Source of the DNA: Halegenticoccus soli
GTDB taxonomy: Archaea > Halobacteriota > Halobacteria > Halobacteriales > Haloferacaceae
Assembly: GCF_002844195.1 (NCBI RefSeq)
Contig: NZ_PEND01000005.1
Location: 248,001 to 312,000 of the forward strand
Direction of reading: 5' to 3'
DNA length: 64,000 bases
Both the position numbers and the translations under genes were made by a program. Below, piece after piece: positions 6,541 through 50,636 of this stretch. Below the pieces are notes generated by a model. The model saw only the letters and a list, made by a program, of their open reading frames with translations, made no database searches and was not told where the DNA came from. Positions within the stretch are counted from its first letter, which is position 1; each line of letters opens with the position of its first letter.

Positions 6541-6975
6541 CTGAAGACCACACGGCATGCAACGTACAACCTCAACTACCACATAGTGTGGATGCCGAAG
6601 TCTCGCAGAACCGACGGTTCTGCGGACATCGCGGAACTCTGTTCCGCCCAGTACCGAAACTCGGTACTCGTCGGTGACGTTGCAACCCGTGTGCGAGACA
6701 TCCTCCACGAAATCGCTGACGCAAAGGGCTTGGAGATTATCGACCTGACCGTTCAACCCGACCACGTTCACCTGTTCGTCAGTAGCCCGCCGAAACACGC
6801 TCCGTCGCTTCTCGCCAACTGGTTCAAGGGCATTTCCTCACGGAAATACAACCACTGCTACGCCGACAACGACGGCGAGAAAATCAAGTGGGAACGCGGC
6901 TACTACGCAGGAACAGCGGGACACGTCTCCAGTGAAACCATCGAAAAATACATCCAGCGTCACCAGAACTCATGA
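6541..6975 (+). pseudogene. tnpA: defective tnpA of element B
   Basis: Recognisable Y1 transposase: KTTRHATYNLNYHIVW, then the HUH motif in QPDHVHLF and the catalytic Tyr in RGYYAGTAG. After an in-frame TAG at 6526 there is no ATG, GTG or TTG before this conserved N-terminus; the first is GTG 6583, too late for a full domain. Seventeen extra codons (6601-6651) split the near-universal W-x-PKYR motif between PK and YR and contain two perfect hairpins. The stop at 6973-6975 lies inside a 20-bp palindrome. Confidence 0.8.
6601..6651. repeat. 51-bp twin-hairpin insert inside tnpA (copy 1)
   Basis: Hairpin 1 is 6604-6624, with 9-bp arms CGCAGAACC and GGTTCTGCG and loop GAC. A 6-nt spacer follows. 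Hairpin 2 is 6631-6647, with 7-bp arms GCGGAAC and GTTCCGC and loop TCT. All arms match perfectly. Removing exactly 51 bp rejoins the conserved PK-YR motif of TnpA in frame. A second insert of the same geometry lies at 49254-49308 in another element, which argues for a small mobile or recombinogenic palindromic unit. Confidence 0.7.
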
Positions 6976-7009
6976 GTTCTGGTTGGCCAGCAAGAACACC
7001 GTTGGTGTT
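6963..7009. repeat. hairpin cluster at the tnpA-tnpB junction
   Basis: The perfect 20-bp palindrome CCAGAACTCATGAGTTCTGG (6963-6982) is followed 12 nt later by arms AACACC and GGTGTT around loop GTT (6995-7009). The core CAGAAC...GTTCTG is the same as in the twin-hairpin inserts at 6601 and 49254. It separates tnpA and tnpB by about 60 nt, whereas they overlap in element A, suggesting that it too is inserted sequence. Confidence 0.5.
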
Positions 7010-7036
7010 TTCGCAACGTCACGAAGAGGGCGAACA

Positions 7037-8383
7037 GTGACCGAACTCACTGAGACATTGGCACTCAAGCTTGTGGAACCGAACGCCCACAAGCATCGGA
7101 AACTCTGTGAGACGAAACAGGCGTACCAAGACGCGCTCGAAGCCGCGTTCAACACAAACTGCACCACACAGTCGGCGGCCAACGACGTGGTGGTCAACTA
7201 CGACCTGAGCGGGTACGCGAAGAACGCGCTCAAGAAGTACGTCCCACAACTCTGTGGTGGTAGCTACGACGCCAAGGAGCTTCACGACGACCATCCCGTC
7301 CGATTCACGAACGAAGGCCCGAAGCTCGACCACAAACCGCAGAACGCCATCGAGTGGTACGTCAAAATCCCGCACCACGACGACTACCACCTCTGGGTGC
7401 CCGCGCAACCAAATCCCGAACAGCTGGAGTGACTCGAAGCGTTGCATGCCGGAGACGCGACGATGGGGGAGTGTCGGTTGTTTGACCGTGACGGCGAGTG
7501 GTACTTCCACATCGTCGCCACGCGTGACGTGGATGAGCGAGAAACTACCAGTTCGGCGGAGACGCCGATTGGGTTAGACATCGAGGAAGCCTCTTTGGTA
7601 ACGGTGTGTCACCGTGACGAGCGCGGCTCCCCGACCGTACCCAACCTCTGGAACGACGAAGGTAAGCGAGTACGACAACTCCGTGAGACGTACTTCACGG
7701 CAACCCGACGCCTTCAGCAACGCGGAAGCGAACGTATCGCAGAGTCCTACGGTGACGAGTTGTGGCGACACATCGACCACATCCTTCACACGGTCACGTC
7801 GGAGGTCGTCGCCTACGCCGACCAGTTCGAGAACCCCGTGTTGGTATTGGAAAACTTGACGCACATCCGTGAGAACATGGACTACGGTGCATTCATGAAC
7901 CGCCGTCTTCACGGATGGGGGTTTGCGAAGATGTACGCTCAGATTCGCTACAAGGCGGCTGAGAAGGGGATTCGTGTGGAAACGGTGAATCCCGCGTACA
8001 CCTCGAAGACGTGCCACTGTTGTGGAGAGAAGGGCTACCGCCCCAACCAAGCAACGTTCGTGTGTTCCAACTCGGAGTGTTGGGTTTCGGAGTTCCAAGC
8101 AGACGTAAACGCCGCGCTCAATATTGCAGACCGCTACCTCAGCGGAGAGAGCCATTCAAGAGAACACACGAGTGGCAATGACTCGGCTGAGGAAGGGGGA
8201 CGTTTGACCGTCCCGCAAGACAGCCAAGCCGATGCTACCCAGCAGGCGACGCTTGGAACGTATGCGTCTCGAAACCTTAGGACCGAATCAGTCGGCCCGA
8301 AATCCCATGGTGGGATTCCCGCGACTGTAGGCGCGGGAGGAGGTCAACGTACAGCCGTACGAGGAACGGGCCCCGGGCAGTGA
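7037..8383 (+). pseudogene. tnpB: tnpB of element B, broken by an internal stop
   Basis: Starts GTG 7037 (VTELTETLALKLVEPNAH). A TGA at 7430-7432 interrupts PNPEQLE*LEALHAGD; a Trp is expected here, so a single TGG to TGA change explains it. Downstream in the same frame are RuvC motif I (GLDIEEAS), motif II with Glu intact (VLVLENLTHIRENMD), zinc-ribbon cysteines (CHCCGE, CSNSEC) and motif III (QADVNAALN). The normal stop near GTYAS also appears lost, since the frame continues past the element end to 8383. Confidence 0.85.
8301..8317. repeat. perfect hairpin next to the element B right-end hairpin
   Basis: Arms AATCCCA and TGGGATT flank a 3-nt loop (TGG). The following bases repeat ATTCCCGCG, suggesting a small duplication beside the right-end stem-loop. 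Like the other extra hairpins in these elements it has perfect arms and a 3-nt loop. Confidence 0.45.
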
Positions 8384-49226: not shown

Positions 49227-49253
49227 TTGACATCCTCCACGCGCCTAAAGGCG

Positions 49254-49308
49254 TCCCCAGAACGCTTTGCGTTCTGGTGTGCGGACGAGACGCAGAGCGT
49301 CTCGTCAA
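49254..49308. repeat. 55-bp twin-hairpin insert in the right end of element D (copy 2)
   Basis: Hairpin 1 is 49257-49277, 9-bp arms CCAGAACGC and GCGTTCTGG, loop TTT. A 6-nt spacer follows. Hairpin 2 is 49284-49306, 10-bp arms GACGAGACGC and GCGTCTCGTC, loop AGA. Removing 49254-49308 restores the uninterrupted right-end stem CGCGCCTAAAGGCGCG. Geometry (9-3-9, spacer 6, second hairpin with 3-nt loop) and the CAGAAC/GTTCTG core match the insert at 6601-6651. Confidence 0.72.
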
Positions 49309-49370
49309 CGCGGGAATCCTCCCGCTCGGGGTCTGGCATTAGCGCCACCCCCGACGTGAGCGACTTTCTC

Positions 49371-50636
<1,266 letters not shown>

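Follow-up and report, generated by a model that had tools for sequence, protein, structure and literature searches.

The 55-bp insert at the right end of element D, an IS605-type element in the genome of Halegenticoccus soli, is a member of a dispersed family of twin-hairpin units. The evidence below makes it probable that these units are non-autonomous palindromic mobile elements that occur across the haloarchaeal order and resemble REPINs or the palindromic elements of Rickettsia. More tentatively, and with somewhat more doubt than conviction, we propose a wider reading: two tagged hairpins alone would constitute a class-wide archaeal element whose arms are both kept perfect and diversified in concert by template switching, through loop inversion and arm conversion, which serves as a source of acidic peptide inserts for haloarchaeal enzymes, which is moved by a candidate enzyme outside the known ones, and which extends protein-coding palindromes to another domain of life. 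A search of open-access text found no description of such elements in haloarchaea, and the units seem to be undescribed in archaea.

Twin-hairpin units in the window and in other genomes

A reading of the window (the whole stretch of 64,000 nucleotides analysed here) from its sequence alone had described one twin-hairpin insert in tnpA of element B and another in element D. Both were confirmed, and a third copy that this sequence-only reading did not report is also present. The features are listed below by window position; E values refer to the covariance model R1, which was built from four near-identical copies of the unit.

6586..6975, plus strand: tnpA (Y1 transposase) of element B, host of insert B; PF01797 match at G000:C5:254643-254960 (contig coordinates; G000 is the source genome)
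6601..6651, plus strand: insert B, 51 bp, in frame, splitting the PK-YR motif of tnpA between PK and YR; AG...AG flanks
6604..6624, no strand: hairpin 1 of insert B (9-3-9)
6631..6647, no strand: hairpin 2 of insert B (7-3-7)
6960..7016 (tagged span 6958-7018), plus strand: third copy, at the 3' end of the tnpA that carries insert B; R1 E = 2.3e-5
49252..49310, plus strand: unit D including its two CG tags; 55 bp from tag to tag (49254-49308), 57 bp net; R1 E = 9e-21
49257..49277, no strand: hairpin 1 of unit D, CCAGAACGC-TTT-GCGTTCTGG
49284..49306, no strand: hairpin 2 of unit D, GACGAGACGC-AGA-GCGTCTCGTC
49371..50636, minus strand: tnpB of the IS element that hosts unit D

Insert B is laid out as TCT + CGCAGAACC-GAC-GGTTCTGCG + GACATC + GCGGAAC-TCT-GTTCCGC + CCAG (9-3-9, 6 nt, 7-3-7), and insert D as TCC + hairpin 1 + TGTGCG + hairpin 2 + AA (9-3-9, 6 nt, 10-3-10). 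The third copy reads TCA-CCAGAACTCATGAGTTCTGG-TTGGCC-imperfect hairpin 2-AA with CG on either side, and its hairpin 1 is perfect. DNA folding z-scores were -6.2 for D, -5.1 for B and -3.0 for the third copy. Twin-hairpin parsing of the real window returned 10 parses at a few places, whereas Markov shuffles averaged 0.125 per window; perfect twin hairpins at such spacing are therefore not a product of chance.

The claim that removal of each insert restores a conserved sequence was upheld for insert B. The PK-YR motif is uninterrupted (WCPKYR or WRPKYR) in five related tnpA genes, and deleting the insert recreates it. The IS605-type element that hosts unit D has tnpB only, and the unit sits within its right-end palindrome; an empty copy of this IS end was searched for and not found, and the palindrome would be regained on removal only by inference. 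Insert B is not matched by R1 and has AG, not CG, on either side. Its membership of the family is probable, not proven, because the assignment depends on the geometry and the CAGAAC/GTTCTG core, with divergent ends and no R1 match. A different palindromic insert occupies the same point between PK and YR in another tnpA (L216, minus strand; PK*RKSKICVPRGIGNL...), which suggests a recurrent insertion spot in the motif. The tnpB of element B (window 7037-8380) contains an in-frame TGA stop, and this copy is thus probably defective.

The pattern CCAGAACN{0,14}GTTCTGG occurs at 11 genome sites and at none in a reversed control, and reading the 11 sites yielded one common unit. R1 identified 16 distinct units in the source genome at E < 1e-5. 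Further copies with the same geometry, for which a covariance-model search of haloarchaeal genomes had been suggested, were found in 27 of 30 relatives, with as many as 55 R1 matches per genome. Across the phylum (197 genomes drawn), R1 matched 30 of the 33 members of the same order and 0 more distant genomes. In a first-hairpin scan of 84,980 species genomes, 74 of 80 loci among the matches listed were haloarchaeal; tag and partner hairpin occurred together at none of the six bacterial matches, as against 83 of 112 haloarchaeal sites. All 10 named genera with plasmid-borne units are haloarchaeal, and carriage by a virus was seen on one contig only.

The unit can be written as CG, T(C/T)N-hairpin-4 to 7 nt-hairpin-N(A/G)A, CG, with stems of 8-10 bp, 3-nt loops and a net length of 51-57 bp. 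Units stand singly or in arrays, where a CG is common to neighbours. Perfect twins numbered 316 distinct examples in the fetched loci versus 8 in a Markov shuffle, a comparison that measures form and not density since the loci were chosen for the element; both loops are 3 nt long in 261 of the 316. Clusters contain 2 hairpins (181 clusters), 3 (13), 4 (21), 5 (1), 6 (2), 7 (1), 8 (2) or 10 (1), and a second hairpin adjoins 214 of 232 tagged first hairpins. The even cluster counts, together with the partner beside these 214 tagged hairpins, identify the doublet as the unit. The spacers are of the types TGTGCG, TTGGC and TGCCA, and the first always-paired stem position is C-G in 50 of 56 cases and T-A in the other 6. 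Two arrays with 8 and 10 successive hairpins (L066 1505-1705; L110 1350-1609) have arms that differ and spacer types that alternate. At the centre of L062 and L063 lies a related twin hairpin with GTGRTT tags, which may represent a sister family; its flanks match (CCTCGGGGTC / GACCCCGAGG).

Junctions were counted in 126 units that had been required to have a T[CT]/[AG]A step adjoining the hairpin. The CG tag is present at the left end of 118, at the right end of 115 and at both ends of 114, and it continues as TC or TT. The junctions show no duplication of a third base or more beyond CG, and CG-N-CG is enriched in the flanks of units. The CG could reflect duplication of 2 bp of the target, or else a tag that is copied into a target with CG. 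Pairing between the flanks as a palindromic target was also considered and was rejected, as there is no consistent complementarity beyond the tag.

Filled and empty sites and in-frame insertions

Two tnpB copies in the source genome share 93% identity, and at two sites one copy has a unit where the other is empty, in reciprocal fashion. A second case is DapA, which in the haloarchaeal genome G003 contains exactly 19 extra residues (57 nt). The insert is present in G003 and its closest congener G078 only (2 of 6 genomes of the genus, the four other congeners being without it), and is absent from 18 more aligned haloarchaeal sequences and from PDB relatives. At the DNA level, the filled dapA of G078 and the empty dapA of G043 differ by a 57-nt gain at CG, and a comparable gap appears in the alignment of FAA hydrolases. 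The tnpB and dapA sites agree with the earlier suggestion of a very small palindromic element that inserts precisely. Judged from these aligned filled and empty sites, the units are shown to be mobile in the evolutionary sense.

On the opposite view, some IS605/TnpB 3' ends inherited the twin hairpin from an ancestor as a structural component, for example of the TnpB guide RNA scaffold, and it has been conserved rather than inserted. One tnpB-lineage 3'-end site, just before CCTGTGGAGACTG, fits this view to a degree: it is filled in several genera (G000, G006, G009 and G028; L297-L307, L028, L043, L045) and may lie in the TnpB guide-RNA region. Because it is common to several genera, the unit at this site could be old or ancestral, or the site could be a hot spot. 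However, the sister copy in the source genome, which is 93% identical, has no unit at this site, many units reside in host enzymes, and 156 of 222 clusters are far from tnpA or tnpB, with TnpB-association fractions in these cluster counts being lower bounds owing to the few query proteins. We consider ancestral descent very unlikely, and as a general explanation it is refuted by the reciprocal empty site and by the location of most units outside IS elements. Ancestral bases in relatives had been named in advance as evidence against insertion, and the outcome on this point is mixed: the tnpB 3'-end site may be old, whereas the dapA and reciprocal tnpB sites are clear insertions. A twin hairpin also occurs at the end of dnaK-like genes (C-terminus ..DADFEDV) in two genera (L027 1501-1565 and L060 1501-1565); the position may be conserved or may be an insertion hot spot, and the hairpin could serve as a terminator.

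Units are found in frame in genes for peptidase S9, DapA, amino-acid kinases, carboxymuconolactone decarboxylase-like proteins and NIF3, and likewise in FAA hydrolase, phosphoglucomutase-like, GNAT and shikimate dehydrogenase genes; Pfam supports the identities of the host enzymes. Their presence within housekeeping enzymes as well strengthens the likeness to Rickettsia palindromic elements that had been proposed from the window. Among strictly defined coding insertions the net length is divisible by 3 in 8 of 8, and 7 of the 8 use the same reading frame, with the peptide (V)(D/N)ESxSxxxANQNAxRSGD. The peptide added to host enzymes is 17-19 residues long, acidic and hydrophilic, and the units lie in one orientation. 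On translation, the consensus unit proved open in several other frames, and the bias to one frame thus likely reflects selection in favour of a peptide that is acidic and hydrophilic, combined with the phase of the CG target (codon-third C, codon-first G). AlphaFold modelled DapA with its insert at low confidence (mean pLDDT 63; values under 50 for residues 187-256), which does not permit a claim on where the insert loop lies.

Three units of the window lie in or at IS elements, and the units might accordingly be miniature remnants of IS605 ends that have preserved the two subterminal hairpins and are moved by the IS200/IS605 Y1 transposase (TnpA). Y1 enzymes recognise just such a geometry of two hairpins and short tags, and in the source genome 13 of 18 units lie no more than 2 kb from a TnpB zinc-ribbon match, where about 3% are expected. 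The TnpB association is partly explained by hitchhiking on multiplying IS elements, however, and the hairpin lexicon and CGTY tags are unlike the LE/RE hairpins of elements B and D. G003, moreover, has about 50 copies but only fragmentary or broken Y1 genes, so that dependence on TnpA is not supported, and about 1 of 43 units there is near TnpB. Mobilisation by Y1 transposases is therefore unlikely in our assessment, and the special tie to the single-stranded TnpA pathway inferred in the sequence-only reading did not hold up in G003.

Arm pairing, loop inversion and a proposed mechanism

The inner triplets of the arms are complementary at about 154 of 163 sites (308 of 326 as counted on both strands), where only the outer six bases per arm were fixed and chance predicts 1/64. 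Part of the set was fetched with a fixed CGC triplet, and the covariation is therefore carried by the variable triplets (ATC, CTC, TCC, GCC, ACC). In 62% of cases the loop is either GNA or the complementary TNC, compared with 12.5% by chance; this joint share is used because equal separate counts are an artefact of counting both strands. Among DNA mini-hairpins, C-GNA-G is unusually stable.

When homologous hairpins whose flanks are conserved were compared, the loop was identical in 228 comparisons, was inverted to its exact reverse complement in 46 and was one change away from the reverse complement in 40; these comparisons are not independent, and the pairs are not all separate events. Between G006 copies that are otherwise about 96% identical, TCC is replaced by GGA, a change accompanied by the repair of a mismatch in the arm, and CCC is replaced by GGG. 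In the source genome the loop changes from AAA to TTT between L004 and L010. Such exact flips, for which the sequence evidence is strong, point to template switching or cruciform recombination between the arms and not to stepwise point mutation. They lend direct support to the earlier idea of a copying mechanism that preserves pairing, and would serve as a natural record of template switching at hairpins.

Strong covariation would also be expected if the units were RNA elements (terminators, processing or stability hairpins) under RNA-level selection and spread by recombination. Many units are intergenic or lie just 3' of genes, for example after DnaK- or thermosome-like C-termini (L027, L060, L044), a distribution in keeping with that function. 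Covariation need not mean selection on RNA, since arm-to-arm template copying would yield both exact loop inversion and paired arms. An Rfam search with the units returned no family match, only a tRNA, and the in-frame insertions in enzymes, the sharp filled and empty sites and the frequent exact loop inversions fit DNA-level behaviour better. An RNA-level explanation is accordingly improbable, and we return to the reading of the units as mobile DNA elements.

For such elements we propose the following scheme. An enzyme supplied in trans would recognise two inverted CGTY-tagged hairpins in single-stranded DNA, and the same putative enzyme would paste the unit at CG, with a preference for CGNCG. 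The arms would stay perfectly complementary through template switching or cruciform recombination, in which the loop is flipped and one arm is copied onto the other; the loop comparisons argue strongly for this step. Units within IS elements would multiply further by hitchhiking, and in essential genes selection would retain only in-frame insertions with the acidic peptide. The fetched loci contained neither an autonomous split version flanking a gene nor terminal inverted repeats common to a resident autonomous transposon, as in MITEs. In a compact archaeal family with sites seen both filled and empty, junctions that follow one rule, and hosts that can be cultured and are open to genetics (Haloferax, Halorubrum), both the enzyme behind mobilisation and the way in which the palindromes stay perfect could be tested directly.

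Comparison with known palindromic elements

CGTC-tagged REPs have an unpaired CGTC (or TGTC, CCTC) tag, a loop of 4-5 nt, A-T at the first two stem positions and a CCA tail (Di Nocera 2013, PMC3733652). The haloarchaeal units share with them a tag at the hairpin end, short stems, an organisation mostly as inverted dimers, intragenic copies and the absence of an associated transposase (no split autonomous form, and no Y1 dependence in G003). The units could then be an archaeal branch, by descent, of this superfamily, which includes Rickettsia RPE-4 and RPE-6. The CGTC tag at the base of hairpins of 8-10 bp, the inverted dimers and the intragenic copies without a dedicated transposase (PMC3733652) are in line with such descent, as is the subset of units that begins CGTCAT..AT. 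On the other hand, the units have 3-nt rather than 4-5-nt loops, most of their stems lack the A-T start, their tail is not CCA and their stem sequences differ; moreover, no archaeal member is reported in PMC3733652. Common descent with the CGTC-tagged REPs is thus doubtful.

REPINs and their RAYT transposases are characterised by a GTAG tag, a linked RAYT gene and the doublet as the unit (PMC3116915). The haloarchaeal doublet is likewise the unit, presumably also of replication, with compensatory changes and arrays. Unlike REPINs, the haloarchaeal elements carry CGTY rather than GTAG, are not associated with RAYT and are found in G003 without an intact Y1 gene, and each half of the unit is a complete perfect hairpin.

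The SMR-A and SMR-B elements of Haloquadratum are very short transposase-free mobile repeats found in the palindromic ends of IS605-type elements; SMR-A is about 110 bp long, with >95% identity within a type and prominent terminal inverted repeats (PMC3119063). The present units are also haloarchaeal, very short and transposase-free, and unit D and many copies in the source genome occupy an SMR-like site in a near-terminal IS605 palindrome, although most units elsewhere do not. They are set apart from SMR-A by description, with lengths of 51-57 bp, highly diverse covarying arms and additional locations in host enzymes. Because loop, stem start and tail fail for the CGTC REPs, tag and transposase for REPINs, and length and homogeneity for SMR-A, the units are not assigned to any of these groups.

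Rickettsia palindromic elements are in-frame palindromes of about 150 bp in unrelated genes, with one conserved peptide and no known transposase (PMC10969869). The haloarchaeal units resemble them, for they too lie in frame in protein genes unrelated to one another and encode one conserved peptide. They differ in their length of 51-57 bp, their twin perfect hairpins with 3-nt loops, their CG junctions, their archaeal hosts and their abundance in IS elements and intergenic arrays. The two groups were compared by description, and phyletic distribution argues against sequence homology. In-frame selfish palindromes in enzymes have so far been treated as a peculiarity of Rickettsia, and the haloarchaeal units present the same behaviour in a smaller, twin-hairpin form.
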